A DNA stretch of 20,655 nt from a virus: IMG/VR virus record IMGVR_UViG_3300006928_000139, positions 1-20,655 of that record, one strand, 5' to 3'. The translations under genes were made by a program, and so were the position numbers. Below the pieces are notes generated by a model. It was not told the DNA's origin. It made no database searches and saw only the letters and a program-made list of their open reading frames with translations. Of the stretch, positions 164 to 20,655 are shown piece by piece; within the stretch, counting starts at the first letter, position 1, and each line of letters begins with the position of its first letter.

Positions 164-867
164 AGCACAAAATACTTTACGAATCACCGTATGAGTATGG
201 TGTGTTCTCTAGTGAAACTCGCAAAAGCGGAAGGTTTTATGACTGCAATGGAGACAAACTTCCTTCAGTAACTACTGTACTATCTGGAACAAAAGAAGGA
301 GACTTCTTGAAGAAATGGATAGACAAAGTAGGTGAGGAAGAAGCAGAACGTATTCGCCTCGAAGCTGCGGCCAGAGGCACATACATGCATAACATTCTTG
401 AAAAACAAATCATCAACGGTGAGATTTGGGAATACAAGCCTGAGAACGCAGAGCAAAAGAGAGCTTTGAAGATGGCATGTACGATCATGGACCAAGGGTT
501 TCCCAACATATCACAAGTGTATGGTTGTGAAGTATCTTTGTATTATCCTGATAAATACGCAGGTCAAGCGGATGTTATTGGTGTACACGACAACGATCTT
601 TCTATCATAGACTTTAAGCAGACAAATAAACCAAAGCGCAGACAATGGGTTTGGGATTACTTTCAACAACTTGCTGCGTACTCTTTGGCCCACAACGAAC
701 TGTACGGCACAGACATACACAAAGGCGTAATTATGATGTGCTCAGTAGACTGCTTGTATCAAGAATTTGTTTTAGAAGGCAGGGAGTTTGACCGAGCCGC
801 TGAAGCTTGGATGGATCGAGTAGAGAAGTTTAGTCTTCTGTCCAAGGAGTTGGAAGCTCGGGACTAG
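160..867 (+). CDS. PD-(D/E)XK exonuclease (RecB/Cas4-like)
   Basis: This 235-residue protein has the motif order of RecB-family nucleases: RGTYMH at 72-77, E124 in GCEVSLYY, D138 in GQADVI, the D151-F-K153 metal/catalytic pair, and QQLAAY at 169-174. In this family the acidic residues and lysine bind metal and cut DNA. Phage members degrade DNA ends for recombination or replication, or break down host DNA. The GTG start gives a 4-base GTGA overlap with the upstream small gene, which supports it. It is one of only two + strand genes in the window, and its last 38 bases overlap the end of the opposing 1808-residue gene. The nuclease class is confident; the exact role (single-strand exonuclease, MGME1-like, recombination) cannot be told from sequence alone. 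Confidence 0.85.
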   Translation: MKHKILYESPYEYGVFSSETRKSGRFYDCNGDKLPSVTTVLSGTKEGDFLKKWIDKVGEEEAERIRLEAAARGTYMHNILEKQIINGEIWEYKPENAEQKRALKMACTIMDQGFPNISQVYGCEVSLYYPDKYAGQADVIGVHDNDLSIIDFKQTNKPKRRQWVWDYFQQLAAYSLAHNELYGTDIHKGVIMMCSVDCLYQEFVLEGREFDRAAEAWMDRVEKFSLLSKELEARD

Positions 868-6256: not shown

Positions 6257-6257
6257 G

Positions 6258-7643: not shown

Positions 7644-8488
7644 TAAACGTACCCAAGCATCTTAAACAAGTCTGCTAAACCACCGCCAGCTTGAGAACCG
7701 TAAATAGTTGTAGCTCCTTGTGGAATCATTCCAAGCATACCTTGATACATTTGCATACGTTTCCAAGGCTCCATAGCCATTTCTTGTGCGCCTTTATATT
7801 GAGAATCATACATTTGTTGTTGTATGTCTCTGCCTTGACTTCCAAGTTGACCAAACTGGTTTATTTGATTCATAAGGCCTTGTTGTCCTTGCATACCTAA
7901 ATCAGCAAAACCTCGTCCCATTTGTCCCATTTGTCCTCCAAGTTGACCTAAACCTTGTCCAGCTCTTTGTGCCAAATTTTGTGCTTGAGTATAGCCTTGT
8001 TGCCTTATGCCACCAACCGCTTCCATCATACCTCGACTGGCCTGTCTTTGTCTTTCTTGTTCCATAAGACGTCCACGAGAACCACCAAACGCACCAGAAC
8101 CTACGGCTCCTGCTCTATCTTGCAAGCCTTGTTGAGCGGTGGCTTGTTGCATGTCTCTCATAGTTTGTTGAACTACTTGATCTTCATACGGATTATAAAA
8201 CTGTTGTGCTGCCATCGGATTATACATTCCTTGTGCCTGTTGCAAAGCTCCAAAGCCTTGTTGTGCCATGCCCGCACCTTGTTGTAAATACGGTGCAAAT
8301 CCTCCAAGACCGCCCGCCAGTGCTCGCGCTTGCATTTGGTAAGGATCGAGTCCAGCAACTTGTCTGATTGGAACAGGAATAGGTTGATTGGCTAAACCCG
8401 CTGCTGATTCTAAAAACCCACGACGCATTGCCCCAGCATAAGGCTGGTCATAATAAGCTGTTGTTGATGGATCTGAATAACTTGCCAT
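7643..8488 (-). CDS. Gln/Gly-rich virion protein, probable DNA-ejection component
   Basis: This is a 281-residue low-complexity protein, strongly enriched in Gln, Gly, Met and Ala, with recurring QQG, GQLGGQMGQMG and AQQG-type stretches and a predicted helical core. It has no signal peptide. Small Gln/Ala-rich helical proteins next to a giant protein are typical of podovirus ejection proteins (compare P22 gp7/gp20 and T7 gp14), which are packed with the DNA and released at infection. It starts directly after the stop of the preceding small ORF (no spacer) and its own stop is shared with the next start (TAATG). The C-terminal SQAGGGLADLF resembles the Gly-Gly motifs of its neighbours. The role is by composition and position only. 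Confidence 0.6.
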   Translation of the reverse strand: MASYSDPSTTAYYDQPYAGAMRRGFLESAAGLANQPIPVPIRQVAGLDPYQMQARALAGGLGGFAPYLQQGAGMAQQGFGALQQAQGMYNPMAAQQFYNPYEDQVVQQTMRDMQQATAQQGLQDRAGAVGSGAFGGSRGRLMEQERQRQASRGMMEAVGGIRQQGYTQAQNLAQRAGQGLGQLGGQMGQMGRGFADLGMQGQQGLMNQINQFGQLGSQGRDIQQQMYDSQYKGAQEMAMEPWKRMQMYQGMLGMIPQGATTIYGSQAGGGLADLFKMLGYV

Positions 8489-8671
8489 CTAACCCCCCAT
8501 TGAATTGATTTGTTCTAGTGTCGGTATGCCTACTGCATCTACCGCTTCTCTACGGATAACAAACTCACCCGGCTCTAGTTTTGCAAAAGTAATATCACCT
8601 GGTCTGTTTTTTATAGAGCCTCCGCTTTTGTAACCCATTTTTTGTACTACATCGGGTCTAACTTTAGCCAA
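8489..8671 (-). CDS. C-terminal segment likely joined to the 314-residue ORF by -1 frameshift
   Basis: As a free-standing gene this would be 60 residues with a TTG start and no convincing ribosome site. In the same frame the codons just upstream read FPNKGLAAL and run into AKVRPDVVQKMGYKSGG, a smooth continuation in composition. This frame is entered by a -1 slip at 8695-8701 in the end of the preceding ORF. I therefore think the segment is the natural C-terminus of a fusion of about 377 residues. It carries a KSGGSI motif like those in adjacent virion proteins and a conserved-looking EPGEFVIRREAV stretch. The alternatives are a true separate gene started at TTG, or a single-base assembly error in the A6 tract. 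Confidence 0.6.
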   Translation of the reverse strand: MAKVRPDVVQKMGYKSGGSIKNRPGDITFAKLEPGEFVIRREAVDAVGIPTLEQINSMGG

Positions 8672-8676
8672 CGCAG

Positions 8677-9621
8677 CTAAACCTTTGTTTGGAAATTTTT
8701 TGCTTCTCCACCTTTCATCATTCCTGGTGCGTTTCCATAACCTACTCCTGGAAGCAATGCAGGCTGTAGTTTTGTAGGTTGATAATCTTGATAATTAAAG
8801 GGTTGTGCTTGTCCGTAAGCTTGTTCTCCTATGGGAACCGATCCTCCACTTCCGCGTTGATCTTTTAACAACGATTTCATCATAAGATAATCGACCAAAG
8901 GGTTTCCAGAACCTTTTCCACCTAAAAAAGACCCTAAAAAATTTCCACCGCCAAGTCCTAACAAACCCAAAAGTCCGCCAAACATGTCTTTAAGTTTAGG
9001 TCCTAAAGTCCCACCAAAAATTCCTGTTTCTGTTCCAGTTCCGTTTGTTCCTGTTCCGTTTGTTCCTGTGTCGCCATTACTACCACTACCGTCTCCAGGT
9101 GTTGTATCTACATCATCAAACAAACTATCTATATAGTCATCTATGTCAAAATCATAATCATAATCAAAATCATAATCACTTAAACCAGAGCTAGAAGACA
9201 TAGATGATGTGTCTCCAACAGGAAAGTTTTCGTCAAGATACTCGGTGTACAAACGCGTATACTCATCTTGAGGAGTTGTTGCAGCAAAGCTCAGTAGCTC
9301 GTCAAGAGTCAAATCACCACCATAAACAGAACTATCCGCCATTCCTGCCGTGTTGGAAGCAGATAAAGCTCCAGACGAAATTAAATCTTCTAAAGTAGGA
9401 TAATTAGATGTTTGGTCGAGATTAAATCCAGCAGCCCCTAAAACAGACGGAGATATAAAATCAATGTAATTTCCAAACAAGTTAGAAATTCCACCACCAA
9501 CAGCGTCACCAATAGCGCCATAATCCGATACAGGCGGAGGTGTGTACGACGTATCAACCGAATCATCAATGATATCATCAATGATATCTGAATAGTCGTA
9601 ATCGTAATTAAAATCTACCAT
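8677..9621 (-). CDS. Asp/Tyr-repeat virion protein, unknown family (frame-0 part)
   Basis: This 314-residue protein is of striking composition. It has an acidic N-terminus (YDYDYSDIIDDIIDD), a second Asp/Tyr/Phe block (DYDFDYDYDFDIDDYIDS) at about 145-165, and then a Gly/Thr/Asn linker (GTNGTGTNGTGTETG). A Gly/Leu-rich hydrophobic stretch around 215-235 (LLGLLGLGGG) and a C-terminal MMKGGEAK motif follow. The acidic blocks could bind calcium or act as electrostatic spacers. It starts with ATG, with AGGA about 12 bases upstream and a gap of 49 bases to the preceding gene, the longest spacer in the - strand operon. It lies among virion genes, so a minor capsid or tail-associated protein is likely. 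It probably continues into the next ORF through the slippery site near its end. Confidence 0.6.
   Translation of the reverse strand: MVDFNYDYDYSDIIDDIIDDSVDTSYTPPPVSDYGAIGDAVGGGISNLFGNYIDFISPSVLGAAGFNLDQTSNYPTLEDLISSGALSASNTAGMADSSVYGGDLTLDELLSFAATTPQDEYTRLYTEYLDENFPVGDTSSMSSSSGLSDYDFDYDYDFDIDDYIDSLFDDVDTTPGDGSGSNGDTGTNGTGTNGTGTETGIFGGTLGPKLKDMFGGLLGLLGLGGGNFLGSFLGGKGSGNPLVDYLMMKSLLKDQRGSGGSVPIGEQAYGQAQPFNYQDYQPTKLQPALLPGVGYGNAPGMMKGGEAKNFQTKV
8695..8701 (-). other. Candidate -1 ribosomal slippery site A AAA AAT
   Basis: On the - strand, frame 0 of the 314-residue ORF reads GCA AAA AAT TTC and stops at TAG 8679-8677. Slipping back one base gives AAA AAA TTT CCA, which runs on without a stop to 8489. 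The heptamer fits the X XXY YYZ rule with both tRNAs able to re-pair on A-rich codons. No stimulatory hairpin or pseudoknot was verified downstream. Confidence 0.5.
9038..9067. repeat. 15-base tandem duplication (two perfect copies)
   Basis: The unit gttccgtttgttcct is present twice in tandem and encodes the repeated Gly-Thr-Asn-Gly-Thr linker of the Asp/Tyr-rich protein. Confidence 0.8.
9146..9178. repeat. 18-base-period repeat coding for Asp-Tyr/Phe alternation
   Basis: tcaaaatcataatca appears at 9146-9160 and again at 9164-9178, within the alternating Asp-Tyr/Phe block of the Asp/Tyr-rich virion protein. Confidence 0.7.
9562..9585. repeat. 12-base tandem duplication (two perfect copies)
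   Basis: The unit atcatcaatgat occurs twice head to tail inside the N-terminal coding part of the Asp/Tyr-rich gene and encodes part of its DIIDDIID run. Each unit is itself an imperfect inverted repeat (atcat/atgat). It is likely a product of replication slippage. Confidence 0.8.
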
Positions 9622-9670
9622 TTGCTTGTTCCTGTTTTCGTTTTATTCTAGCATGTTTTTTTGCCAATGT

Positions 9671-10681
9671 TTATTTTCTTGAAGCCCCACCACTACTTAT
9701 TTTCCTGTTTAGCCCAGAGCGATCATATTTTGCCTCTTTCCCCGTTAAGGCTCTTGCTGCGGCCCTTTTAGCCAACATTCTTCCAATATTGCTTGCCCTT
9801 AGTCCTTGGTTCGTGGACTGTGCAGCACCGGGCACTAAACCATACATATAAGCACTGGGATCACCGCCTGTTTCTGCTATTCTGTTTGCAAGGCTTTCGT
9901 TAGCGAACTGTTGCACTCTGGCCGCTCTTTCGGCTCTTTCTCGTGCGTTTGTTTGGGCCTGTGTTTCTCTCATTTGAGCAGTGACTTCGACAGGCTGTAT
10001 ATCTGGATACATGTCTACATTTTCAGCTTCTTTTTCTGCAAAAGACTTTATTGGTAATATTCTAGCAAACAAGTTTCTAAGTTGTGGCCCTAGTCCTTGG
10101 CCCAATATACCCCGTTGTCCTTCTATTCTAGGCTGTATTCTATTTAACAAATAACCAATTCCTGCAATCTGCGGAAACATTTGAGCAAACTTAACTCTGT
10201 TTGCTATTTGACTTGCTGCACCAAAAGGATTCTTTTTAAAAGCTTTGTCAAGACCTAAACCTCCAATACCAGACGTTCCATATCCTAATAAACCTCCTTG
10301 ATTGCCAATCAAAGAAACAATTGGTCCATATTTCTGAGCCATTTTCTTAATGGCTTCTCTTCGTAAAAACTCTCTTGCTATACCTTTTCCACCACCAAAA
10401 TTAGGATCAAAAATACCCGCACCAATTATGTTGGTGGTGGGGTCCATTTTCATAATGTTTGCAAGAAGTTGTCTTCTCCACGCTTTTTGTCTTTCACGAA
10501 TTGCTTGAACAGCGGCTGAAGGTTCTTCTTCCTCTGTTACCATAACCGAACCACCTGACTGATACCCCTTGTACCCAGAAGCATACGCAGCTCTCGCTTG
10601 TTTAGCAGCTTGAGCTTTTGTCGGATAAACCTTTCCAGATTCACCCCACTTGTATCCTCCTTTTACTTTCTTAATAGGCAT
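9671..10681 (-). CDS. Basic virion protein, unknown family
   Basis: I take the ATG at 10681, giving 336 residues beginning MPIKKVKGGYKWGESGKVYP. The open frame extends 35 codons further upstream, but that part lies on the preceding gene and reads as a low-quality basic stretch. At 10681 the stop of the preceding gene and this start share a base (TAATG). The N-terminal 40 residues are a Lys/Tyr/Gly-rich module, followed by YQSGGSVMV, an acidic patch (TEEEEPS), then helical and Gly-rich parts and a very basic C-terminus (KRAAARALTGKEAKYDRSG). The basic ends suggest contact with DNA or a packed capsid interior. Position between the tail hub-like gene and the ejection-type genes points to a virion component; no named family is recognised. 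Confidence 0.6.
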   Translation of the reverse strand: MPIKKVKGGYKWGESGKVYPTKAQAAKQARAAYASGYKGYQSGGSVMVTEEEEPSAAVQAIRERQKAWRRQLLANIMKMDPTTNIIGAGIFDPNFGGGKGIAREFLRREAIKKMAQKYGPIVSLIGNQGGLLGYGTSGIGGLGLDKAFKKNPFGAASQIANRVKFAQMFPQIAGIGYLLNRIQPRIEGQRGILGQGLGPQLRNLFARILPIKSFAEKEAENVDMYPDIQPVEVTAQMRETQAQTNARERAERAARVQQFANESLANRIAETGGDPSAYMYGLVPGAAQSTNQGLRASNIGRMLAKRAAARALTGKEAKYDRSGLNRKISSGGASRK

Positions 10682-11007
10682 TATAATATTGGGACCGTTG
10701 TAGTACCATTTGTTGATATTGTTACATTTCCGAGTTGTCCCGTGGCTTTCACACCTTTTCCGTCTGGTGCGTATAGTGTTTGCCACGCATATCCATCAAA
10801 AACTTGCAGACTGTCTTCTGTCAAATTCCAAATAATATCTCCGTGACTAAACAAGTTTTGGTCGCGAGTAGTATTAGTATACTGGTAAGTTGCTGTAGGA
10901 TCAAAACCTTGTAGGTTTAGTTCTAAAATTCTTACCAACCTATTAAAAACAACAGAGTCAACATCTCCCACTGCTGTAGGCAAACGTGTATCAAGCAATC
11001 GTGCCAT
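10681..11007 (-). CDS. Small virion-associated protein, unknown family
   Basis: This 108-residue protein has an N-terminal helix (DVDSVVFNRLVRILELN), then polar, beta-prone sequence (TYQYTNTTRDQNLFSHGDIIWNLTEDSLQVFDGYAWQTLY) and a Thr/Val-rich end. It has no signal peptide or membrane span. Both ends are joined to neighbours by one-base TAATG overlaps, so it is locked into the virion operon between the large beta-rich tail protein and the basic virion protein. The FDGYAWQTLY-like aromatic stretch resembles short receptor- or fibre-linked beta modules, but this is only an impression. A tail adaptor or fibre accessory protein is possible. Confidence 0.6.
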   Translation of the reverse strand: MARLLDTRLPTAVGDVDSVVFNRLVRILELNLQGFDPTATYQYTNTTRDQNLFSHGDIIWNLTEDSLQVFDGYAWQTLYAPDGKGVKATGQLGNVTISTNGTTTVPIL

Positions 11008-12893
11008 TATCTCCTACCATCCGGTCTGGTGTTTAATCGCATATCTCCAAGTCTCCATCCCACACCAAGCCTTACTTCAGTGCTTGCGTCGTCGTCAGAC
11101 TCTAACCTAACCACCGCTTGTCTTGCCCGACCTCTCAAATCTACTTTCTGTGTGCTTTCGGTTACTTGGCTTGTGCTTTTGGTTGTTAAGCTCTCGTTTG
11201 GATAGTTTCTAGTTTTTAACACAAAATTAACCGCTTGATCTGAGCCCCCATTACCTAAGAAACGCACATCTGGTATAACGTTTTGTATTTGTGTGTACGC
11301 GTTTCCTATGCCGTCCAACGAAAAATCAGCCGATTCAATGTAAACGTTGTCCATAGGCGTTCCGTCTGCATCGTTTCCAGTCTCGTGTTTGTAGACATAG
11401 TTATATGTATCTGTGCCCGTGGCTCTTGGGAAAGGCTGCACGCCTTCGTCTAACCAAGCAAAGCGCGTCATTTGTCCATAGTACCAAACGTTTTCTTGGT
11501 AATTAAAAACAACATATCTGTCTATTTCTGTAGAGCTTCCAGAAGGGTAGAACCAACCGACCTCGTTAAACTGTCGATTTAAATAACCAAACACTTTAAA
11601 CGATTGGTTTTGGTTAAAATCGTTAAACACATAGTTGTGCACGGAACAAGGCACTCTTGAAACCGAACCGTTGTAATTATAAAAGCCAGAACGATCCATC
11701 CAGTATACCCCTGCTGGCGTATTAACAGCAGCTTTAGGAGCAACCATACCTACTCCCTGATTAATTAGGTTTACGCCAAAAGTGTAGGGAGGACCAATAA
11801 ACTGCATACTATACAACGCATCATCTGTCCAAATCAGTATCTCTTGCCGAGAACGAAGCGCGCCAATAATTTGTGTCCCAGCAGACAAACGCAAAGAGCC
11901 CGCCGTGTTTGTTGAAGTGGGCTCCCAATCATTAATGTTTTCTTGGTCTGACCAAGCAATAAACATAGGATCAACAACACTGGTTCTAGCTACCCCTGCA
12001 TCATCTAATGGGTCTGCGCCTAAACAAATAACATGCCTGTCGACGTCGCTAACAAGCACTTGCAAAGCAACGGTTGGAGGAAGAATTGCACCTAAATCCG
12101 TTAAACTTTGAGCACGCACACTTGTTCCGCTGTTCTCGGTCCAATAAAAAATACCCCCTGCTCTTGGGTTTATAACTAAGTCTTCACCAAAATTATCGTG
12201 CGTCCATATTCTTAATTGGTTATTAAACGCAAGTGCAGAAGCAGAACCAAACGTACTGTCGCCCCAAGCTCCAGCACCATAGCCTGAACCAGAAACATAT
12301 TCATCTAGTCCTACACTGATTTGATAAGCGCCAACGACACTTGATCCACCGTTTCCAGAATCACTCGCGTTTGCTGTTACAGTAGAATCAGAAGTGTCTT
12401 TTGCCGTAATTTTGTAACTGTTTGCATTAACAATAGAATCAATAGAGTATTCTTGGTTGAGTACAGCAGCCGTAACATTTCCTCCAAGACTGGCTGCACC
12501 ACTAAAAGTTACATAATCTCCTTTACTTGCTCCGTGCGAAGTATCGGCTACAGTCACTGTAGAGGAACCGTTTGTTGCTGAAAAAGTTACGTCCCCCGCC
12601 GAAGTCGTGGCTCTTATAGGTGTTATGTCGTAAAAGTTAGTTCCGTCTTTAACATAATATTTTACCGTGGTTCCAAGACTTAAATATTTTGTACCGCCCA
12701 AGGAAACCCATGCGTGCAAAGCTCGCCCTGTTCCTAAATATGTATCTGTTTGTTCTTTTTCCCAGCCCCCTATTTTTTCTGGGAAGCCTTTACGAAAACG
12801 CACCAAGTTAGAATCAAACCAACCACCTTGAGCAGAAAACGCAGTTCCTTCCCTATTTATTCCTGGAATAAGTTTGTATTTAGAGTACGGCAT
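11007..12893 (-). CDS. Beta-rich phage tail hub/appendage protein (P22 gp10-like type)
   Basis: This 628-residue beta-rich protein opens MPYSKYKLIPGINREGTAF and then has WFDSNLVRFRKGFPEKIGGWE, a signature I associate with podovirus tail hub/stabilisation proteins of the P22 gp10 kind. Repeated Trp/Gly blade-like segments follow (HAWVSLGGTKYLSLGT, LRIWTHDNFGEDLVINP, ILIWTDDALYSMQFIGPP, GVYWMDRSGFYNYNG). At about 100-165 there is an inserted small beta domain (TVTVADTSHGASKGDYVTFSG ending SYKI), similar to the FCCH-like modules common in marine phage structural proteins. In P22-like phages such proteins close the portal and bind the tail needle and fibres. It ends with a TAATG overlap into the next gene. 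The exact equivalence to gp10 is not proven. Confidence 0.65.
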   Translation of the reverse strand: MPYSKYKLIPGINREGTAFSAQGGWFDSNLVRFRKGFPEKIGGWEKEQTDTYLGTGRALHAWVSLGGTKYLSLGTTVKYYVKDGTNFYDITPIRATTSAGDVTFSATNGSSTVTVADTSHGASKGDYVTFSGAASLGGNVTAAVLNQEYSIDSIVNANSYKITAKDTSDSTVTANASDSGNGGSSVVGAYQISVGLDEYVSGSGYGAGAWGDSTFGSASALAFNNQLRIWTHDNFGEDLVINPRAGGIFYWTENSGTSVRAQSLTDLGAILPPTVALQVLVSDVDRHVICLGADPLDDAGVARTSVVDPMFIAWSDQENINDWEPTSTNTAGSLRLSAGTQIIGALRSRQEILIWTDDALYSMQFIGPPYTFGVNLINQGVGMVAPKAAVNTPAGVYWMDRSGFYNYNGSVSRVPCSVHNYVFNDFNQNQSFKVFGYLNRQFNEVGWFYPSGSSTEIDRYVVFNYQENVWYYGQMTRFAWLDEGVQPFPRATGTDTYNYVYKHETGNDADGTPMDNVYIESADFSLDGIGNAYTQIQNVIPDVRFLGNGGSDQAVNFVLKTRNYPNESLTTKSTSQVTESTQKVDLRGRARQAVVRLESDDDASTEVRLGVGWRLGDMRLNTRPDGRR

Positions 12894-12909
12894 TTATATA
12901 TATTATCCT

Positions 12910-13344
12910 TTATTTTTTAACTAGACTACCACCAAAATACATACCAATAATGGCGGACACCAAGTTTGTATCCAATTGTGTAATGACCAAGCCCTCAAAT
13001 GTAACCCATTCAAAAACTTCTCGTCCTTCTTTAAAAAACCAAAAACCCGGCATCCAATTTGTATAGCCAACAGTCACAGACACATCAGGAGCGTACACAG
13101 CTACCAACTTTGGCAAAAGAATAATTGCAAAGATTGATGTTAGTGCAATAACTCTACGAGTAAAAGTAAAGCCTTTGTCTTGAACATTTCTTGCAGCTTC
13201 AATTGCTTTGAGTTGAAACTCCCCTCTAGTAATAAGTAATTGTTGTTCGTCCGCTTTCGCTTTACGACTTTGTGCCCATATACTTAGTAAACTACTCAAC
13301 AAAGTTGAGCCGAGCATTGTGATTATCTCAAACGGAAAACCCAC
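12910..13344 (-). CDS. Three-span membrane protein, holin-like
   Basis: This 144-residue protein has hydrophobic spans at about 6-23, 63-83 and 125-141, with a charged, probably coiled helix between the first two (QSRKAKADEQQLLITRGEFQLKAIEAARN). The end is a short span of the IGMYFGG kind with a Lys tail. Size and layout resemble the three-span holins found in phages and gene-transfer agents (GTA_holin_3TM type). Such proteins open the inner membrane so that the lytic enzyme can reach the wall. The start is a GTG eight bases after the previous stop; an in-frame ATG at codon 10 is the alternative. No endolysin gene is in the window to support a lysis cassette, so a virion membrane-protein role remains open. 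Confidence 0.5.
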   Translation of the reverse strand: MGFPFEIITMLGSTLLSSLLSIWAQSRKAKADEQQLLITRGEFQLKAIEAARNVQDKGFTFTRRVIALTSIFAIILLPKLVAVYAPDVSVTVGYTNWMPGFWFFKEGREVFEWVTFEGLVITQLDTNLVSAIIGMYFGGSLVKK

Positions 13345-13351
13345 TTCATTA

Positions 13352-13558
13352 CTAAAAGTACTTTGTTTTTTTGCGTCGGTCTGGCATTACTGCTCCACAA
13401 CCTCTTGCAATTTTAGCTTTTGGCACCACGCCCCCAGACATCTTCTTAGGCCAGCCTGCTTGCATATCAGCGTATGCCTCTTTGGATATAGTCGAGTCTT
13501 TTTTAGAACGACTCTTGCCTGCTTTCTTTCTTTTGTTTATGTTTTCTACCAAGCTCAT
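13352..13558 (-). CDS. Small basic Cys-containing phage protein
   Basis: I choose the ATG at 13558 (68 residues, starting MSLVENINKRKKAG). It falls one base after the stop of the upstream gene and has GGAAG about ten bases upstream. The open frame begins 22 codons earlier, but that would overlap the previous gene by 65 bases. The protein is Lys/Arg-rich with SGGVVPKAKI and a C-terminal block GCGAVMPDRRKKTKYF, a tail I recognise as recurrent in small proteins of marine phages. It may bind nucleic acid or pack into the virion; no function is established. The Gly-Gly-hydrophobic motif is like those of the larger virion proteins downstream. Confidence 0.65.
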   Translation of the reverse strand: MSLVENINKRKKAGKSRSKKDSTISKEAYADMQAGWPKKMSGGVVPKAKIARGCGAVMPDRRKKTKYF

Positions 13559-13559
13559 A

Positions 13560-13847
13560 TCAACACTTCCATCTTCTTCTAGCAGCTTTGCCTCTTTCGC
13601 CTTTCCATCCTTTTGACCGAGCACAAAAAGACTTACGTCGTTTTGCGGCTTTACTGCCTCTTTTAACTTTCCCTGTAACCGCAGTTTTTAACTTTGATCC
13701 AGGATTCTTTTTTCTATAGGCCTTGACTCCTTTTTTGGTCATGCCTGCGCCCTTTTTAGTAGGACGGTAGTTTGCGCCTTTTCCTTTCGTAGTGCGTCTT
13801 ATTGACTTCGTTTTTCTTTTACTTTTACTTTTTCTTTTTGCCGCCAT
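13560..13847 (-). CDS. Small highly basic protein, DUF6321-like
   Basis: With the ATG at 13847 the product is 95 residues, beginning MAAKRKSKSKRK. About a third of it is Lys/Arg. The core PTKKGAGMTKKGVKAYRKK, NPGSKLKTAV, then KRRKSFCARSKGWKG matches the pattern of a small family (DUF6321, from memory) often seen in marine phages. Residues in that pattern (Lys-Gly-Gly/Ala, Asn-Pro-Gly-Ser, Lys-Ser-Phe-Cys-Ala-Arg) are intact. The charge suggests DNA or RNA binding or DNA compaction. Its first 23 bases overlap the end of the 52-residue gene. Longer starts (GTG 13886, ATG 13862) exist but have no better ribosome site. The function is unknown. Confidence 0.7.
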   Translation of the reverse strand: MAAKRKSKSKRKTKSIRRTTKGKGANYRPTKKGAGMTKKGVKAYRKKNPGSKLKTAVTGKVKRGSKAAKRRKSFCARSKGWKGERGKAARRRWKC

Positions 13848-13983
13848 GCGTTTTTTGAACATCAAAACTTGCATAAAGACTTGCACCCTTATGCGGTTTA
13901 TATTTGCCCGTATGTTTCATCAACTTAGGGGCCCCTCTTTTTTGTTTCATCCAATGAAACCCTTTTGGTGCTTTTACTTTCAT
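13825..13983 (-). CDS. 52-residue basic phage protein
   Basis: An ATG at 13983 opens a 52-codon frame to TAA at 13827-13825: it starts MKVKAPKGFHWMKQK, continues PKLMKHTGKYKPHKGASLYA and ends in a Lys run. The pattern of aromatic and Lys residues is one I recognise from short proteins in marine phage genomes, so I regard it as real despite its size. It fills what would otherwise be an empty gap between the cyclase and the next basic gene. It is highly basic and soluble. The function is unknown; a role in nucleic-acid binding or virion assembly is only a guess. A promoter-like sequence lies directly upstream with almost no room for a leader. Confidence 0.7.
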   Translation of the reverse strand: MKVKAPKGFHWMKQKRGAPKLMKHTGKYKPHKGASLYASFDVQKTHGGKKKK

Positions 13984-13990
13984 AAATAAG

Positions 13991-14019
13991 AGTATAAATT
14001 AAAAAGAGAAAACGCTCAA
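13991..14019 (-). promoter_or_regulatory. Candidate sigma70-type promoter before the virion genes
   Basis: On the - strand TTGAGC (14019-14014), a 17-base spacer and TATACT (13996-13991) resemble -35 and -10 boxes. The start of transcription would fall at or next to the ATG at 13983, giving a leaderless or near-leaderless message. It lies at the junction between the sensing/curli module and the virion genes. In AT-rich DNA chance matches are common, so this is tentative. Confidence 0.35.
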
Positions 14020-15777
14020 AGGTTTCTCCTTTCCTTTGACTTTTATTTTGTCAACAAACTTTAAATCAAAAGCACAAAACCGAGCCGTGTCTTCTCCTAC
14101 CAATAAACTAACTCCCAGGTCCTTGGTCCCTGATTCAAGTCTCGCTGCCACATTAACCGCATCGCCTATCGCAGTGTAGTCAAACCGTGTTTCCGATCCC
14201 ATGTTTCCTATCACAGCTTTGCCTGAATTAATTCCTATACCTATTTCTACAGGAGGTAAACCTTCTTCTTCAAGCTCTACGTTTAATTCTTTCATGTTAT
14301 CCATGATTAACTTTGCACAAAGCAATGCTTTTGTTTCGTGTGCAGGTTGATCTAAAGGCGCGTTCCAAAATGCCATCATTGCATCACCAATGTATTTATC
14401 AACAGTGCCTTCAGCTCTTTGCACCGCTTTTTGTTGTGCCGTCAAAGCTTTGTTCATAATGTATGTCACTTGTTCGGGTGGTAGTGTTTCTGACATAGCT
14501 GTGAACCCTCTTACGTCTGTGAACAAGAATGTTGCATATCTTGTCTCTCCTCCAAGGACCAAGAGCTCTGGATTGTCTTGCAGTTTTTTAACTTGTCTGG
14601 GGTCGAGATAGTGTTCAAACTGTTTTTTAATCTCTTGCCTAAGTTTGTACTGTTCTCTAAAGTTTAAATAAAAGCCAACGGATCCCGCTATAAAGCCAGC
14701 GATCAAGGGCCAAGTGACGTCGATCAATAAATTGTTTTGCACCAAATAATAGCCACCGCCAGCAACGATTCCATTCAACATAAAGAAAAAGAACAGTCCA
14801 GAACTTACACCAAACTTAACCACAAAAATCCATGCCAAAGAAACCACTGCTAAGTAAACACCTAACTCAGCCAATAAAGCGTAATCAGGGATCATCGGAC
14901 TGTCTTGTATCAATATGGATTCAGACAACGCGGCTTGTATCTTGTGTGGCTCTACTAAGCCAACAGGTGTGGCGATTTGTGGCATCACACCTTTTGCTGT
15001 AACACCTATAAATATAAAGCGGTCTTGAATTAAGTCTGTGTTTTTGATGTCAGCAAGAGAAAACTCAGGAGTCTTCACCCAACTAATCCATTTTCTTCCC
15101 AAGGTGTCGGTCTTAACTGGAGGCAGTCCCTTGACTCTAATCTCTTGTATACCTGCTTCTGAAGTTTTTATTAGGTAAGTGTCTGATCCAGTTAAAACCT
15201 TCAGAACCTCTGTGCCGTAGGCAGAAACCCAACCGTCAGGGGTTCTTAGTAATAATGGCATTCTTCTCACCAATTGGTCAACCTCTGTTGGAGCAACTGC
15301 AATACCTTGATATGCAGCTTCTCTTAACAAAGGTGTGTTTTGTACAACACCTTTTGCCTTAAATCCCCCACGATCTTCGCCTAATATAACGGTGCCTGTG
15401 GTAAGTGGGTACTCACCGTTGTCGTTTTCAAAAGAAGCTAAAACGCTGGGAGCAGAGGCAAGACTTTCTGCAAATGCCAAATCGCCATTAAAACGATCTG
15501 GTTGAGGAAAGGCAATAACCCAACCAACACCCAGTGCACCTTTATTAATAAGCTCATTTTGTATTTCTGCTAAACGTTTTCTTGGAAACGGATACCCGCC
15601 TTCCTGTTCTACATCTTCCTCTGTAATGTTTAATATTGAAAAATAGTTTGATGGTTGTTTTTCTGCAACCATGGCATCAAATGTTTTCAGTTTTATTGTT
15701 TCATAAAAAGCTGGGTTGTACACCAACGGCAAACCCAAAACGAGCAACAAAACCATGAATACTTTTGTTTTAATCAC
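13999..15777 (-). CDS. CHASE2-domain membrane adenylate cyclase (class III)
   Basis: This 592-residue receptor cyclase makes cAMP from ATP. It has an N-terminal membrane anchor (about 5-20) and a periplasmic CHASE2 sensor (about 25-290; typical openings FDAMVAEK and the late IFIGVTAKG). Three membrane spans follow at about 300-320, 325-347 and 350-372, then a linker helix and a class III cyclase domain (about 412-592). All hallmark residues are present: metal Asp421 (FTDVRGFT) and Asp465, Lys461 and Thr535 for adenine selection, Asn542 and Arg546 for the transition state (YTAIGDAVNVAARLE). It is therefore predicted active and ATP-specific. The GTG start overlaps the curlin gene stop by eight bases; ATG at codon 8 is an alternative. 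Such an enzyme is unexpected in a phage. Confidence 0.92.
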   Translation of the reverse strand: MIKTKVFMVLLLVLGLPLVYNPAFYETIKLKTFDAMVAEKQPSNYFSILNITEEDVEQEGGYPFPRKRLAEIQNELINKGALGVGWVIAFPQPDRFNGDLAFAESLASAPSVLASFENDNGEYPLTTGTVILGEDRGGFKAKGVVQNTPLLREAAYQGIAVAPTEVDQLVRRMPLLLRTPDGWVSAYGTEVLKVLTGSDTYLIKTSEAGIQEIRVKGLPPVKTDTLGRKWISWVKTPEFSLADIKNTDLIQDRFIFIGVTAKGVMPQIATPVGLVEPHKIQAALSESILIQDSPMIPDYALLAELGVYLAVVSLAWIFVVKFGVSSGLFFFFMLNGIVAGGGYYLVQNNLLIDVTWPLIAGFIAGSVGFYLNFREQYKLRQEIKKQFEHYLDPRQVKKLQDNPELLVLGGETRYATFLFTDVRGFTAMSETLPPEQVTYIMNKALTAQQKAVQRAEGTVDKYIGDAMMAFWNAPLDQPAHETKALLCAKLIMDNMKELNVELEEEGLPPVEIGIGINSGKAVIGNMGSETRFDYTAIGDAVNVAARLESGTKDLGVSLLVGEDTARFCAFDLKFVDKIKVKGKEKPLSVFSF

Positions 15778-16480
15778 TTTGGTTAATGGTTAGTGTTTTA
15801 TTGCAGTTACTGCTACAGTTATAGTTTACTGTGATTGATTTGTTGGTTGCACCTGATTGACTTGCGGTGACATCGTAATCATCGGTGTAAAAGTTCAGCT
15901 TCATATAATGATCGCCACTTCCAGTCTGTGTTATGGTCGCATCATTGTTGTCTGCTGAATTGCTTGCATATATCTTGGCATAGTGTTCACCGCTTCCTGA
16001 TTGTGTAATTGAGAAGTTTGAGTTATCACCGAATGCCCTAATCTCTCCTTCCTTGTCATCTCCTGTTTGTGTAATTTCATATACGTTATTATCACCCTGC
16101 ATATAGATTTCAGCATCGTTGTTGTTTCCGTTTTGCACAATGTCCATATCGTTTCCATCATCATCGGCATCTATATAACCAAAGTTATCATTGCCATCTT
16201 GGTCAATCTTGTATTCATTTCCTGTGTGATTTGCAACTTGGCTGTATGCTCTGGCTGTGTTTGAAGTCCCATCTTGGTCTATGTCTATCGTGGCATTGCT
16301 ACATTTGTGTGTGGTGTAGGTGCCTTGAGACAAACCGCACCAGACTCTTGCTGTGTTGCTGTTGCCTATTTGATCAATGTGTATAAGCGAAGAATTGCCT
16401 TTGGTTCTTATCTCAACGTTGTTATCGCCCGCATGTACACAGAAGGAAAAACTAATCAGACTGATTAATAATAATCTCAT
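15770..16480 (-). CDS. Curlin-repeat secreted protein 2 (CsgA/CsgB-like)
   Basis: It has a signal peptide (MRLLLISLISFSFCVHA, then GDNN) and eight to nine curlin-type repeats of the form x-I-D/T-Q-x-G-x-x-N/D: IDQIGNSNTA, IDIDQDGTSNTA, KIDQDGNDN, DIVQNGNNND, EITQTGDDK, SITQSGSGE, TITQTGSGD and TASQSGATN. In curli the repeats stack into a beta-solenoid amyloid fibre outside the cell. Gln, Gly and Asn positions are kept, but the protein is richer in Asp than E. coli CsgA. It has four Cys, including C-x3-C near the end, and finishes INQSD. I prefer the ATG at 16480 (236 residues) because GGGGGCGG is well spaced from it; GTG at 16486 is the alternative. Partner or second subunit of the other curlin-like protein. 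Confidence 0.85.
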   Translation of the reverse strand: MRLLLISLISFSFCVHAGDNNVEIRTKGNSSLIHIDQIGNSNTARVWCGLSQGTYTTHKCSNATIDIDQDGTSNTARAYSQVANHTGNEYKIDQDGNDNFGYIDADDDGNDMDIVQNGNNNDAEIYMQGDNNVYEITQTGDDKEGEIRAFGDNSNFSITQSGSGEHYAKIYASNSADNNDATITQTGSGDHYMKLNFYTDDYDVTASQSGATNKSITVNYNCSSNCNKTLTINQSD

Positions 16481-17543
16481 TTTCACCGCCCCCGTTTGTT
16501 TTTATGCTGATTTGTTTACCAGCAGAAAGTATTTCAATATTATAGCCTCCAGTTTTGTCAAGCTCTAGGTCAATCGTGTTTTCTACTTGTCTTACTAAAG
16601 ATAAAACTTCTCCCTCAACAAAAGTGTAGACCTGTGCGTTTTGGTCAAAACCCGCAACGATTCCTTCCAATCTTACACCATCAAGTTCACTGGCCTCTTC
16701 TTCTTTTTTACCTAGGTCTTCTATGATTTCTAACAAGTCTTGCAGAAAGTCTACAGCCAGTAGGTCAATATCTAACCTAGTGATCTCTTCTTCTAGCTCG
16801 TCTTTTGATAAATCGCTGTCATCGTCTAAGTCGTTTTCCTCTAATAAGTCTGTGTCCAGCACATTGCTGGATGTACCGCTTTGTTCGTCAACCGCCTCTT
16901 GCACTTCATCTGGAGGGTTTACGATCAATAAATTGTCTATAAAGTTTAAAGAAAGGTTGGCCAGAGTGACGGGTTGTGTAGGCGGTCTTTCTGCAACACT
17001 GACCATCGTGGCTTGAAAAGGTTGGTTTAAAACTTCGATTCCGCCTGCGGTTTCCACGCTTATAGACCCCGATGTTGTACCGTCTGGGTTGGGTAAAAGA
17101 ATAATTAAAGACCTACCTAGCTCATCTACAGTTGTTGTGAAATCAGTGCCTCGAATAAATATAGAGGCGGAAGGAGTCTTAATAGAAATGTTTTCTTTGT
17201 CTATCTTCCCCAACGCACCTGTAATAAAGCGGGCAGTTCCGCTCGCCATTTTGAGTGCCATTTTGCTTTTAGATGGATCAGGATCGAATACATACTCATC
17301 AATAATGATTTTAGAGTGCTCAGTAAGACGTATGACAGAAGAATCAAGAAACGTAATGCCAAGCCTACCGTTACCAGTGCGCACATCATCGTAACTAAGA
17401 ATATCCAGGGAAGTTCTAGCTGAAAGTCGATCTTCTTGGTTTGCTCGTAAAACCTCTCCAATACCTCTAAGTTCAGATATTTCACCTACTTCGGAGTAAG
17501 CGTTAGATACTAAAAAATATAGTATTAACAGCCACTTGTGCAC
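16452..17543 (-). CDS. Secreted FecR-domain protein
   Basis: This 363-residue protein has a signal peptide (MHKWLLILYFLVSNAYS) and a FecR domain at about 45-170, with the usual run DVRTGNGRLGITFLDSSVIRL, then MASGTARFITGAL, IKTPSASIFIRGTDF. After it come an acidic region rich in Asp/Glu/Leu (about 215-285) and a beta-rich end finishing NEIIINQSD, the same last five residues as the curlin encoded next. FecR domains relay periplasmic signals, and in bacteria they are often encoded beside CHASE2 cyclases, as here two genes downstream. It lacks the N-terminal anti-sigma part and has no membrane anchor, so it is probably free in the periplasm. GTG start; overlaps both neighbours (19 and about 29 bases). 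It may be a ligand or co-sensor of the cyclase (inference). Confidence 0.88.
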   Translation of the reverse strand: MHKWLLILYFLVSNAYSEVGEISELRGIGEVLRANQEDRLSARTSLDILSYDDVRTGNGRLGITFLDSSVIRLTEHSKIIIDEYVFDPDPSKSKMALKMASGTARFITGALGKIDKENISIKTPSASIFIRGTDFTTTVDELGRSLIILLPNPDGTTSGSISVETAGGIEVLNQPFQATMVSVAERPPTQPVTLANLSLNFIDNLLIVNPPDEVQEAVDEQSGTSSNVLDTDLLEENDLDDDSDLSKDELEEEITRLDIDLLAVDFLQDLLEIIEDLGKKEEEASELDGVRLEGIVAGFDQNAQVYTFVEGEVLSLVRQVENTIDLELDKTGGYNIEILSAGKQISIKTNGGGENEIIINQSD

Positions 17544-18208
17544 TGATCAATGTCTATTGTTGCGTTGCTTGTGGTTGATGTAAGAACCACCACACCTGAA
17601 GTGCTTCCAGTGCTGTTGGTTTGATCAATGTCAATATTGTTTGTGCTACCAGTAATATCTGCTGTAATTGAGTGGTCAGAGTTTCCTGTTTGAGTCGTGT
17701 CTATATCGTTTGAATCGCCATCAACATCCCAATTGTTTATACAACCAACAACCTCACAAGTTGCATTCAGGTCGTTTGATGTGCCTGATATAACAATGTC
17801 TTGATTACCTGCGGTGGCTGTTGCTGCTGCACCCTGAGTAAAGGTTACTGCATTTGAATCACCTGTTGCAGCATAATCAAAATCAGTGTTAGCAACATCA
17901 CCGCTTGCGCCCAATGCCAATGTAGTTGTATTGCTATCACCTGTGGTTGTTGCTGTAAAACTGGTGCTATTACCTTGTGCTACTGAAGCAGCCATTGTAT
18001 TGCTGTCTCCCACTTGATCTATGTCCACAGTCATAGACGTACCTGTAAACGTAGCTCTTGTTTGGGATGTACCAACCTTGTTAGTGTCTCCAATCTGATC
18101 AATGTTCATCGTCAAACCTGTTCCAGACTGAGTGATATAGATGTCATTGTTTCCTGCGTTTACAGAAAACACAGCAAACAATAAAACTAAACTAACTAAC
18201 TTCTTCAT
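17525..18208 (-). CDS. Curlin-repeat secreted protein 1 (CsgA-like)
   Basis: This 227-residue protein has a clear signal peptide (MKKLVSLVLLFAVFSVNA, then GNND) and about ten imperfect curlin repeats: DIYITQSGTG, NIDQIGDTN, VDIDQVGDSN, TTTGDSNT, AATGDSNAV, DVDGDSND, TTQTGNSD, IDIDQTNS, IDIDQCTSG. The strand-turn pattern with Gln/Gly/Asn fits an amyloid beta-solenoid subunit exported through CsgG. It is less regular than E. coli CsgA, with Thr/Asp in place of many Gln, so fibre behaviour may differ. Four Cys occur as C-x4-C mid-protein and C-x3-C at the very end. It starts inside the last codons of csgG (17-base overlap) and its end overlaps the FecR gene by 19 bases. Likely fibre subunit; a surface adhesin is the alternative. 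Confidence 0.85.
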   Translation of the reverse strand: MKKLVSLVLLFAVFSVNAGNNDIYITQSGTGLTMNIDQIGDTNKVGTSQTRATFTGTSMTVDIDQVGDSNTMAASVAQGNSTSFTATTTGDSNTTTLALGASGDVANTDFDYAATGDSNAVTFTQGAAATATAGNQDIVISGTSNDLNATCEVVGCINNWDVDGDSNDIDTTQTGNSDHSITADITGSTNNIDIDQTNSTGSTSGVVVLTSTTSNATIDIDQCTSGC

Positions 18209-19013
18209 AATTGAAATCCCACATTTCTTGTTCTAGACCTTTTTGTATCAGAGTATAGACGGCCTCTTCGATGGCTACTCTGGTTGCGTATCCCATTGCT
18301 TCGTTTTCTGTGTAGCCTGTTTCAACTTCGACAAGTTCGGTCCCCATTTCTATGAAGCGAAACACATCACGGCTGACACCTGCGCTTAATACGGTTTTGC
18401 TTACCATACAATTTAACACAACTTCCCCTGTTTGAACAAGAACAGCTCGCAAAGACACAGTAATTTCATCTTTTCTCCATTGGTTTTTTGAGCCTATTCC
18501 TAAGTATCTTGCACCGTTTCCACCTGTTCCTATGTTGGTGTCGTATTCAACAATCGCGCCTTCAATGATAAGACCAGCAAACAATAATGGTTTTAATATG
18601 TTTCCACCTTCACCATCATAACTTTGCCTAGTGGATTTTATGAGCTGGCGTTCACGAGTCAATGCGTCTAAATTGTTTCGTTCTACGACCACGAACCAGT
18701 TTCCTCTGCCTGCACTTCTCAAAGAATCAATCAAATAATGGTCTGCTCCTTGGGTAACAGCGGTGCTAAACAAAGCCATCTTTTGTGAACTTTTACGTTG
18801 ACCAGTTAGATCTTGAAATTTATAAACAGCAATAACTGCTTTTTGGTTTGGAGCCGGAAGGTTTACCAATTTCTCATGTGACGGACGTACAATCTTTGCT
18901 TCTTCAACACATTCCAAAAAATTAGCGCACCCTGTATGCCCTACTGGAGCAAAACTTGCACAGCTAGAAAGCAGTGGCAATAAAAGAACTAAATACCACA
19001 CTCGCCCGAACAT
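18192..19013 (-). CDS. csgG: CsgG curli secretion pore lipoprotein
   Basis: This is a 273-residue outer-membrane lipoprotein with lipobox LSSC (Cys18). It follows E. coli CsgG through the whole length: LPAPNQKAVIAVYKFQDLTGQ, FSTAVTQGA, VVVERNNLDALTRER, NGARYLGIGSKNQW, SKTVLSAGVSRDVFRFIE and VETGYTENEAM. Nonamers form a beta-barrel channel that exports curlin from periplasm to surface. The constriction differs: Phe82 matches E. coli Phe56, but Leu81 replaces Asn55 and no Tyr stands at the Tyr51 site. There is an unusual C-x5-C (29, 35) after the lipid anchor. It overlaps csgF by 25 bases and the first curlin gene by 17. Family assignment is secure; what passes through it in infection is inference. 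Confidence 0.96.
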   Translation of the reverse strand: MFGRVWYLVLLLPLLSSCASFAPVGHTGCANFLECVEEAKIVRPSHEKLVNLPAPNQKAVIAVYKFQDLTGQRKSSQKMALFSTAVTQGADHYLIDSLRSAGRGNWFVVVERNNLDALTRERQLIKSTRQSYDGEGGNILKPLLFAGLIIEGAIVEYDTNIGTGGNGARYLGIGSKNQWRKDEITVSLRAVLVQTGEVVLNCMVSKTVLSAGVSRDVFRFIEMGTELVEVETGYTENEAMGYATRVAIEEAVYTLIQKGLEQEMWDFNYEEVS

Positions 19014-19462
19014 ACGCCTAATATTCCAATTGGAATAATAATCTCAGTTATTGTTCCGTTTTCATCAATAACAGTGAGCGTTATATTAATGCCATCATTA
19101 ACAAACCTTATAATGCTGCCTTCTAATTCAAACTCTCCACCTGTGCCTCCTTTTTCAGAATCAAACAAAGACTCAGCAATGTCTCTTGATAGTTGTGAGT
19201 AGATTCTTGATTCTAGGTTTCTTAAAAATTTTGCAAGGGTTGTATTCTCAGCTTCGCGTTCTGCTTCTTTTAAAGCATCTTCAATGTCTTGAGCAATTTC
19301 ATCTCTTCTGGTTTTTTCTTGCTCGTCAATGGTCAGGTAATGAGAAGAAGTGCCGATGCCACTAAACGATGGGTTTTTAAATTCGTGTACAAGATCGTCC
19401 CCAACGACAGTCGCTGTGAACCCTAATAAAACAATTATCGAATAATATATTAACCACTTCAT
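18989..19462 (-). CDS. csgF: CsgF-like curli assembly factor
   Basis: This 157-residue protein has a signal peptide (about 1-21), and the mature N-terminus then carries the CsgF hallmark HEFKNPSFSGIG (Asn30-Pro31-x-Phe33). In E. coli that segment inserts into the CsgG channel to form a second constriction and passes newly exported subunits to the fibre. The C-terminal RFVNDGINITLTVIDENGTITEI also matches the CsgF beta end. The middle (about 45-105) is a longer, charged helix than in E. coli, and the end adds C-x3-C (CSGEC). It precedes csgG with a 25-base overlap, as csgF precedes csgG in E. coli, and its start overlaps the previous gene by ATGA. Family assignment is good. Confidence 0.88.
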   Translation of the reverse strand: MKWLIYYSIIVLLGFTATVVGDDLVHEFKNPSFSGIGTSSHYLTIDEQEKTRRDEIAQDIEDALKEAEREAENTTLAKFLRNLESRIYSQLSRDIAESLFDSEKGGTGGEFELEGSIIRFVNDGINITLTVIDENGTITEIIIPIGILGVCSGECGI

Positions 19463-19704
19463 TTTTTCTTTTTTTCATTCTCTCGCATCTGTAAAACAGT
19501 GTTGACCTTCTGTTGTAATCTTATCATATCGTTGTCCAACATTCTTACTTGGTCAATGAGTTTGATGATTGTCATGTGCATGTCTTTGATTGTTGGGTTA
19601 ATGACTTTTGTTATTGTAACCCATACAAAGTAAACAAAATAACCAAGCCCAACCATTGCTACAATGGGAAACCCAAAATCTGCGATCAATTGTGAGACGT
19701 TCAT
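19459..19704 (-). CDS. Small membrane protein with coiled coil (paralogue B)
   Basis: This 81-residue protein has one N-terminal membrane span (about 11-32, FGFPIVAMVGLGYFVYFVWV), then a helix predicted to coil (DMHMTIIKLIDQVRMLDNDMIRLQQKV) and a Lys-rich end. The NDMIRL core and overall layout match the preceding 98-residue gene, so the two are probably tandem paralogues. Both neighbours are coupled to it by overlaps (TAATG before, ATGA into csgF), which ties it to the curli genes by translation. It could be a lysis-associated protein or an inner-membrane partner of the secretion module; I cannot tell which. Confidence 0.7.
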   Translation of the reverse strand: MNVSQLIADFGFPIVAMVGLGYFVYFVWVTITKVINPTIKDMHMTIIKLIDQVRMLDNDMIRLQQKVNTVLQMRENEKKKK

Positions 19705-20000
19705 TAGTCTCGCCTAGCATCAATGGATCCGTCTTCTACAAAATTTTCTGTTCTGGCTATTCGATCCAGGTCTGGTGCTAACTCTAAAGCTGCGCTTACA
19801 CTAGTGTCGAGTCTTATCATGTCGTTGTTGATTGTTTTGACTCTTGTAATCAGGCTTTGTGTAAACCCTTTAAGCGTTTTGATTTGGTTCACCACACCGT
19901 TCATAATTTGTTTCATAATAATGAATATAAAAGCACCAGCGACTAGGGCTCCCGCTATAGGGGCGCCCACTTCAGAAATTAAGGTAAAAGCGTCTTTCAT
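19704..20000 (-). CDS. Small membrane protein with coiled coil (paralogue A)
   Basis: I start it at ATG 20000 (98 residues, MKDAFTLISEVGAPIAG), which has AGG about eight bases upstream and an ATGA overlap with the small gene before it; the frame reaches back to 20054 but that part overlaps the previous gene. It has one membrane span (about 12-30), a coiled-coil-like helix with INNDMIRLD near residue 60, then a soluble acidic tail. The NDMIRL motif is shared with the next gene, and both open with a similar hydrophobic N-terminus. The stop of this gene and the start of the next share one base. A role in lysis, or as a membrane helper of the curli module, is a guess. Confidence 0.7.
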   Translation of the reverse strand: MKDAFTLISEVGAPIAGALVAGAFIFIIMKQIMNGVVNQIKTLKGFTQSLITRVKTINNDMIRLDTSVSAALELAPDLDRIARTENFVEDGSIDARRD

Positions 20001-20128
20001 AAAAGACCTAGCGCGACGAGTGTATCCCAAAGAACGTATGCAAAACAAACCCAAAACCCTTTTTTATAAAAATCGTGTTTGAGGTATAGCTCTTTTGGAA
20101 TAATTCCTCTTTCCGCTAGGTCTTTCAC
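19997..20128 (-). CDS. 43-residue single-span membrane protein
   Basis: A GTG at 20128 opens a 43-codon frame: KDLAERGIIPKELYLKHDF, then a C-terminal hydrophobic span (about FWVCFAYVLWDTLVALGLL). Its TGA overlaps the next ATG by four bases (ATGA), and it begins six bases after the previous stop, so it fits exactly in the gap between two genes. The amphipathic head plus span is sensible for a tail-anchored membrane peptide. No clear ribosome site is seen. I cannot name a family; small holin- or antiholin-like proteins have this shape. Confidence 0.55.
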   Translation of the reverse strand: MKDLAERGIIPKELYLKHDFYKKGFWVCFAYVLWDTLVALGLL

Positions 20129-20133
20129 AAGGC

Positions 20134-20310
20134 TTACTTATCGCCTGGTTTTTGCTTGGCCTTCCAGACATTTAAAGCACACATGTCAACCAGCTTGTAA
20201 AGCTTGCCAATCCACACGTCGTCTTTAGGAGTCGGCGTCACAGCAGCAATAATACTTGCCCCTGAGATAATGGCCATCACCATAGCGATTATGTTTGCAA
20301 TCATTTCCAT
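20134..20310 (-). CDS. 58-residue single-span membrane protein
   Basis: An ATG at 20310 opens 58 codons. The product has a hydrophobic N-terminal span (about 3-25), then TPTPKDDVWIGKLYKLVDM and ALNVWKAKQKP. The TPTPKDD, GKLYK and ALNxxKAK run is a pattern I recognise from small phage membrane proteins often found near lysis or tail genes. An AGGGGA ribosome site lies five bases before the ATG and the preceding stop two bases before it. It would be anchored in the inner membrane with the charged end in the cytoplasm. The function is not established. Confidence 0.7.
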   Translation of the reverse strand: MEMIANIIAMVMAIISGASIIAAVTPTPKDDVWIGKLYKLVDMCALNVWKAKQKPGDK

Positions 20311-20311
20311 T

Positions 20312-20494
20312 TTATTCCCCTGTTATTACTTTAAAGATTATGCCCGCCATACTTAGCACGAGCGTAATCAAAGTTAGCAGAATGAATTGTTCAAGTCTAG
20401 TAACTCTGTGTATAACTTCTAGCCAACGTTCCGCACAAACAGCTTCGTGTTTTTCTATTTTGGCGTTGACTTCAGCTACAGATAATCTGCTCAT
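20312..20494 (-). CDS. Tail-anchored membrane protein, XhlA-like
   Basis: I start it at ATG 20494 (60 residues, MSRLSVAEVNAKIEKHEAVC) because AGAGG precedes it at a good distance and its start overlaps the preceding stop as ATGA; the frame runs seven codons further upstream. The first 35 residues are a charged helix with HEAVCAERW and RVTRLE, followed by one membrane span near the C-terminus (about 37-57). That layout, with a His-Glu then Arg-Trp helix before a span, resembles the XhlA family of small phage proteins that work with a holin in lysis. The similarity is by pattern only. Confidence 0.6.
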   Translation of the reverse strand: MSRLSVAEVNAKIEKHEAVCAERWLEVIHRVTRLEQFILLTLITLVLSMAGIIFKVITGE

Positions 20495-20655
20495 GCTGCC
20501 TCTACTTCCCAACAATTAAGATTAGAAGCAACTGTTCGTCTTTCGCCTTCGCCTTTAAATGGATAAACCATGTGAGAAAGCCAGGATGGAAATAAATACA
20601 GTTTTCCGACTTCAGGTTGTACTTCAAAACTTTGTGGTGGTCTTAATCGTTCTAC
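20491..20655 (-). CDS. Partial 2OG-Fe(II) oxygenase (C-terminus)
   Basis: The - strand frame is open from the right edge to TGA at 20493-20491, giving the last 54 residues. It contains GKLYLFPSWLSHMVYPF and then ERRTVASNLN, the closing part of the phage 2-oxoglutarate/iron oxygenases (2OG-FeII_Oxy_5 type). The His after LS would be the distal iron ligand, and the Arg in ERR would bind 2-oxoglutarate. These enzymes hydroxylate or otherwise oxidise a substrate using oxygen and 2-oxoglutarate; they are common in aquatic phages and their targets are mostly unknown. The gene continues beyond the window. It is linked by ATGA overlap to the small membrane gene that follows. Confidence 0.75.
   Translation of the reverse strand, partial: VERLRPPQSFEVQPEVGKLYLFPSWLSHMVYPFKGEGERRTVASNLNCWEVEAA

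Follow-up and report, generated by a model that had tools for sequence, protein, structure and literature searches.

A curli-type module with FecR and CHASE2 cyclase genes in phages, and a second gene pair found at its site

A curli-type module among phage genes

The window, by which we mean the whole stretch of DNA analysed, is a linear IMG/VR virus fragment of 20,655 bp. Between 20,054 and 13,999 its minus strand carries, in this order, two small membrane-type genes followed by CsgF, CsgG, curA (the first of two curlin-type proteins), a FecR-domain protein, curB (the second) and a CHASE2 adenylate cyclase (Table 1). From CsgF (19462) to the cyclase (13999) successive ORFs overlap by 8 to 35 bases at all junctions, and the first ORF beyond the cyclase starts at a distance of 16 bases. 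A sequence-only reading had described the last six of these genes as one overlapping minus-strand run among phage genes, and Pfam, PHROG and the ORF coordinates agree with it. Pfam finds CsgF, CsgG, FecR, CHASE2 plus cyclase and the curB repeats, with curA just under the cut-off (19.4 against 20.7 bits).

On the upper side of the module, where PHROG families are matched, two further small membrane-type genes (h3 and h4) are accompanied by a partial 2OG-Fe(II) oxygenase. On the lower side, small genes and a possibly holin-like membrane gene lead into phage virion genes, with an exonuclease last. A tRNA search of the window found none. We also noted a late protein of 1,808 aa (830-6256) without a Pfam or PHROG family; it shows weak similarity to HTVC027P and 023Pt_psg01 structural proteins and, again weakly, to a Pseudoalteromonas phage protein with an ADP-ribosyltransferase annotation.

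Table 1. Features of the window, and the alternative gene pair on other contigs
Feature	Position	Strand	Match or remark
h4, small membrane-type protein	20312..20515	-	upstream flank; also in module-less phages
h3, small membrane-type protein	20134..20310	-	upstream flank; phrog_9685
HK1	19704..20054	-	phrog_18771, 2e-24
HK2, HK1 paralogue, 81 aa	19459..19704	-	phrog_18771, 1e-27
CsgF, curli pore partner	18989..19462	-	Pfam CsgF 4.6e-13, over cut-off; phrog_35372 7e-39
CsgG, outer-membrane curli export pore	18192..19013	-	Pfam CsgG 2.6e-53
curA, first curlin-type protein, signal peptide	17525..18208	-	Curlin_rpt 1e-3, below cut-off
FecR-domain protein	16452..17543	-	Pfam FecR 1.8e-11
curB, second curlin-type protein	15770..16486	-	Curlin_rpt 4.6e-16, five repeats; ends INQSD
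CHASE2 adenylate cyclase	13999..15777	-	Pfam CHASE2 2.3e-26 and class III cyclase 7.4e-19; phrog_35576 3e-132
Three small overlapping ORFs, one DUF6321	13352..13983	-	downstream flank; common to curli-less phages
gp628, phage virion protein	11007..12893	-	phrog_3287, 9e-72; basis of lineage tree
Phage exonuclease	160-867		PHROG match, 1e-50
altA/altB pair at the curli site	L087:1130-4613; L218:1104-5125; L106:4108-8131		altA phrog_20531; altB without known family

Because the window is known from a metagenome contig alone, it might be an assembly chimaera, or a phage contig fused to a bacterial island. The sequence-only reading had itself pointed to assembly breaks at the module edges, or to flanks lying in a bacterial chromosome without phage genes, as the findings that would undo it. 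No break was found: four independent contigs (L004-L007), at 83-99.9% identity to the window, cross its module edges. L004 is 99.9% identical over 14105-20655, L005 holds the module together with virion genes (94% over 11184-13350, 97% over 13991-15773 and 95% over 15769-20127), and L006 and L007 cross the edges too. Module genes occur together with gp628 in 55 contigs. A chimaera is thus exceedingly improbable, and we rejected it. We likewise rejected a bacterial chromosome as the source of the fragment, since phage genes flank the module on both sides. The module is a property of the phage, carried as a discrete and exchangeable unit.

The sequence-only reading knew of no account uniting pore, cargo and a cAMP-signalling pair, but one exists: Wittmers et al. 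2022 report exactly this gene order, including FecR, a cyclase and one or two 'histidine kinases' but no CsgC, D or E, from SAR11 myophages and nine podophage genomes (PMC9599517). CsgG-like genes in marine phages, mentioned in the sequence-only reading, are indeed in print: CsgG/CsgF were reported by Zaragoza-Solas 2020 (PMC7029224) and in the Melnitz paper (PMC9004378), as well as in PMC9599517. Our survey located the module, in the same order, at about 95 loci.

The window is a member of the published pelagiphage T8SS module kind (PMC9599517), with one or two HK genes, CsgF, CsgG and a curlin adjacent in that order, followed by FecR and then by a second curlin and the adenylate cyclase, and without CsgE. 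It differs in its GC of about 41% and in belonging to a lineage apart from the cultured HTVC023P-type phages. The gp628 tree puts HTVC023P, HTVC027P, 023Pt_psg01, DSL-LC04, CRP-901 and a Planktothrix phage outside the group of the window, on long branches that leave their placement unsure. The Kyanoviridae phages HTVC008M and Melnitz, the only annotated phages with HK2, carry all eight genes in the same order, but at 31-49% protein identity and at a different genome site. Canonical E. coli curli operons share CsgG, CsgF and curlin repeats with the window, which lacks CsgE and adds FecR, the CHASE2 cyclase and the two small proteins. New here are the exchange with another gene pair (altA/altB), the FecR tail, the apparently wrong histidine kinase label, and the conservation of the cyclase together with purifying selection.

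Published trees favoured Alphaproteobacteria as the source of the module (PMC9599517). Our single scan of genome contigs found no bacterial donor; most of what it returned was either phage-type modules that had been binned into MAGs (GC 0.33-0.40) or bacterial CsgG loci with no FecR or cyclase close by. The phage-type modules lie in MAG contigs L164-L168, L170 and L175, labelled Synechococcus, Flavobacteriaceae, Pelagibacter, Maricaulis and Neomarinimicrobiota. These are probably mis-binned phage contigs, and curli claims for the same five groups call for caution.

The pore, the curlins and the small proteins

CsgG carries a lipobox-like LSSC, whose Cys18 is invariant in our alignment (A1), and matches E. 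coli CsgG structures at 1.6e-43. The canonical pairing of a CsgG lipoprotein pore with CsgF is therefore present. A CsgE gate was found in none of 11 related phage records, some of them fragmentary, in a search whose E. coli control gave a positive signal. As an aside, a very short record, OR851715.1 (Salmonella phage S.Kent 1-2-1, 1,499 bp), holds a CsgG at 40% identity and is possibly a host fragment deposited as phage.

AlphaFold2 models curA as a repeat fold made up entirely of strands (pLDDT 84), and the curlin-type QxGxxN motifs of this protein are conserved in relatives; a fold search against solved structures gave nothing significant, the CsgA fibril appearing only at E 0.66. Where synonymous change is unsaturated, dN/dS is 0.02-0.09 for curA and 0.02-0.13 across all module genes, a strong purifying selection at a level like that of the virion gene at 11007-12893. 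Judging from these proteins, fibre formation is likely. A surface fibre or matrix, as the sequence-only reading had supposed, is plausible and already in print, with 'sibling capture' and protection from superinfection among the proposed roles (PMC7029224, PMC9599517); the choice it had offered between capture, exclusion and release is one that sequence does not decide.

On another reading it is the pore itself that matters: CsgG/CsgF would form a lysis-timing or uptake channel, a role put forward earlier for Melnitz and pelagimyophages, and the curlins would be minor or vestigial. It would fit with the missing CsgE gate, with the small membrane genes and, in some relatives, the endolysin genes that adjoin the module, and with the lack of clumping in Melnitz cultures (PMC9004378). 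Yet the argument from Melnitz needs csgA and csgB to be missing, as its paper states (PMC9004378), and the GenBank record of that phage (L003:9737-12531) annotates two curlin-repeat proteins. Strong purifying selection also acts on both curlins, and an open pore would leave FecR and the cyclase unexplained. We consider this role for the pore rather unlikely.

The two small proteins at the head of the module are module-specific and sit at the published place, so their homology to the proteins of Wittmers et al. stands, but the kinase label fails. These proteins are small, 81-116 residues among the members scanned, and a kinase domain was absent from all 13. Their sequence reads as a single hydrophobic segment and then a probable coiled coil, and the alignment places the likely true start of HK1 near 20000. 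'Histidine kinase' looks like the wrong name for them. HK1-like proteins were also seen in L124 (1483-1764) and L149 (785-1066), two contigs with no curli genes, where they adjoin a peptidase-like gene and a small holin-like gene.

The FecR tail and a candidate route to cAMP

The FecR protein opens with a signal peptide, a hydrophobic segment lying immediately before the FecR domain, and continues through an acidic linker, disordered in the model, to a C-terminal strand domain that ends in INQSD, as curB does. In fold it matches the surface-signalling domain of PupR (E 3.6e-4), with a second, weak match to the adhesin anchoring domain 5ix9 (E 0.018); a sequence search of the PDB gave no match. 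The best alphaproteobacterial homologues lie mostly within large open frames.

Wittmers et al. take FecR to be an iron-dependent regulator that, with the small proteins as histidine kinases, controls the curli genes. The family name and the published annotation speak for this, and so does the resemblance of the FecR-domain fold to PupR, a genuine regulator. However, an anti-sigma domain is absent from 11 of 11 FecR proteins, in which FecR is the sole domain present, Pfam and PHROG revealed neither a sigma factor nor a FecA partner in the window, and the small proteins have no kinase domain. The iron label looks wrong, and control of this kind is very unlikely.

The end of the protein offers another clue. 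The pattern I-x-[hydrophobic]-x-Q, with at most four residues after it, ends all 74 distinct complete phage FecR proteins and 39 of 61 second curlins, against none of 756 other ORFs of at least 150 aa. In the window the same 35 bases (16452-16486) encode the FecR tail and the signal-peptide start of curB; such an overlap is seen in many phages, and the curB signal peptide could constrain the tail. But in modules without curB (L114, L125, L131, L161 and others) the overlap with the next gene is 0-4 bases and the tail is retained. We therefore rejected the overlap as its sole cause, and the tail appears to be selected at the protein level, although it may be a generic final strand.

Class III cyclases use two metal aspartates, a lysine plus a threonine or serine on the adenine side, and an asparagine/arginine pair. 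The cyclase of the window has the corresponding D421, K461, D465, T535, N542 and R546 (Asp also being accepted in place of the Thr/Ser), these six residues are conserved in 67-68 of 68 homologues, and its domain matches solved bacterial cyclases. FecR and CHASE2 proteins also adjoin in a bacterial biofilm operon (PMC5192318), and we saw such neighbours in contig L178. That operon, Burkholderia BiofilmReg, resembles the window in placing an exported FecR-domain protein beside a CHASE2 sensor with a link to biofilm, but it has a kinase in the cyclase's place, no curli genes, and is bacterial (PMC5192318). From these neighbourhoods it is reasonable to infer that the FecR protein is coupled to the cyclase, and its curlin-like tail suggests that the signal sensed would be fibre assembly itself. 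The earlier idea that the phage monitors its fibre through cAMP gains from the catalytic residues, the FecR-CHASE2 neighbours and the tail; on the other side, a search of 11 related phage records, some fragmentary, turned up no cAMP (cNMP)-binding protein.

We envision the cassette as a phage-borne type VIII secretion (curli) unit used late in infection. The phage would insert a CsgG-CsgF pore into the outer membrane of its host, and the two curlin-type proteins, by homology, would be exported through it to build an amyloid fibre or matrix at the surface of the infected cell. The FecR-domain protein would be an extracytoplasmic partner of the fibre and not an iron regulator: its C-terminal curlin-like strand could stack on curlin subunits, cap them or give way to them, and its FecR domain could meet the CHASE2 domain of the inner-membrane cyclase. 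In this way the assembly state of the fibre would set host cAMP. That the cassette makes a late surface matrix, with FecR coupling its assembly to cAMP, seems to us an even call. If phages do make curli, infection would confer a new surface property on the host and affect aggregation, superinfection and recombination, and the FecR tail offers a concrete, testable link of the fibre to cAMP.

Two gene sets at one site

The nearest gp628 relative of the window, contig L218 (97% protein identity), has no curli genes. The two share their flanks, at 90% over 20275-20655 upstream and at 93% over 13556-13985, 93% over 9320-13349 and 98% over 5887-9068 downstream, but in L218 the curli unit is replaced by two other genes with signal-like N-termini, altA and altB. 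The match restarts at most 14 bases from the window's cyclase stop. Between L021 and L226 it restarts within 3 bases of the cyclase stop, with a flank at 98%. altA combines Asn/Thr-rich repeats with a cysteine-containing domain; altB is long and acidic, without a Pfam match, and its N-terminus looks nidogen-like.

Among dereplicated, complete intervals from the upstream membrane genes to gp628, 20 hold curli, 14 the alternative pair, 15 neither and none both (Fisher p 2e-4, kinship ignored). Across all 226 contigs examined, which are partial, none carries the two sets together. Mapped on the gp628 tree, the curli label has to change 16 times, and well-supported branches force at least 15 of these changes. 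The curli unit moves as a block that begins with the first small membrane protein and ends at the stop codon of the cyclase.

This bears on another reading of the FecR-CHASE2 cyclase pair, as an independent cAMP switch that acts on host metabolism or on the entry of other phages and is only a passenger beside the curli genes. Bacterial FecR-CHASE2 pairs do exist without curli, and some modules have lost the second curlin or the cyclase. Against such independence, FecR lies between the curlin genes, overlaps them and has a curlin-like end, and the entire block is exchanged as one. We find a separate switch distinctly unlikely.

That altA/altB occupy the curli site in close relatives suggests that a slot next to the late genes is dedicated to surface modification. 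A bolder version, which we offer tentatively and regard as doubtful, is a surface-matrix slot in which the curli cassette with its assembly sensor and the altA/altB pair are functional substitutes repeatedly exchanged by recombination, FecR being a fibre cap that reports to the cyclase. The swap of cassettes between near-identical phages amounts to a natural experiment, in which the trait under selection should be whatever both versions have in common.

The C-terminal domain of altA also occurs in cultured SAR11 phages, e.g. Mosig (L281), HTVC023P (L282) and HTVC033P (L283), whose records gave no CsgG match. In all three the protein encoded next again has a signal-like N-terminus, and in two of them the altA domain lies near a lysozyme or M15 peptidase gene.
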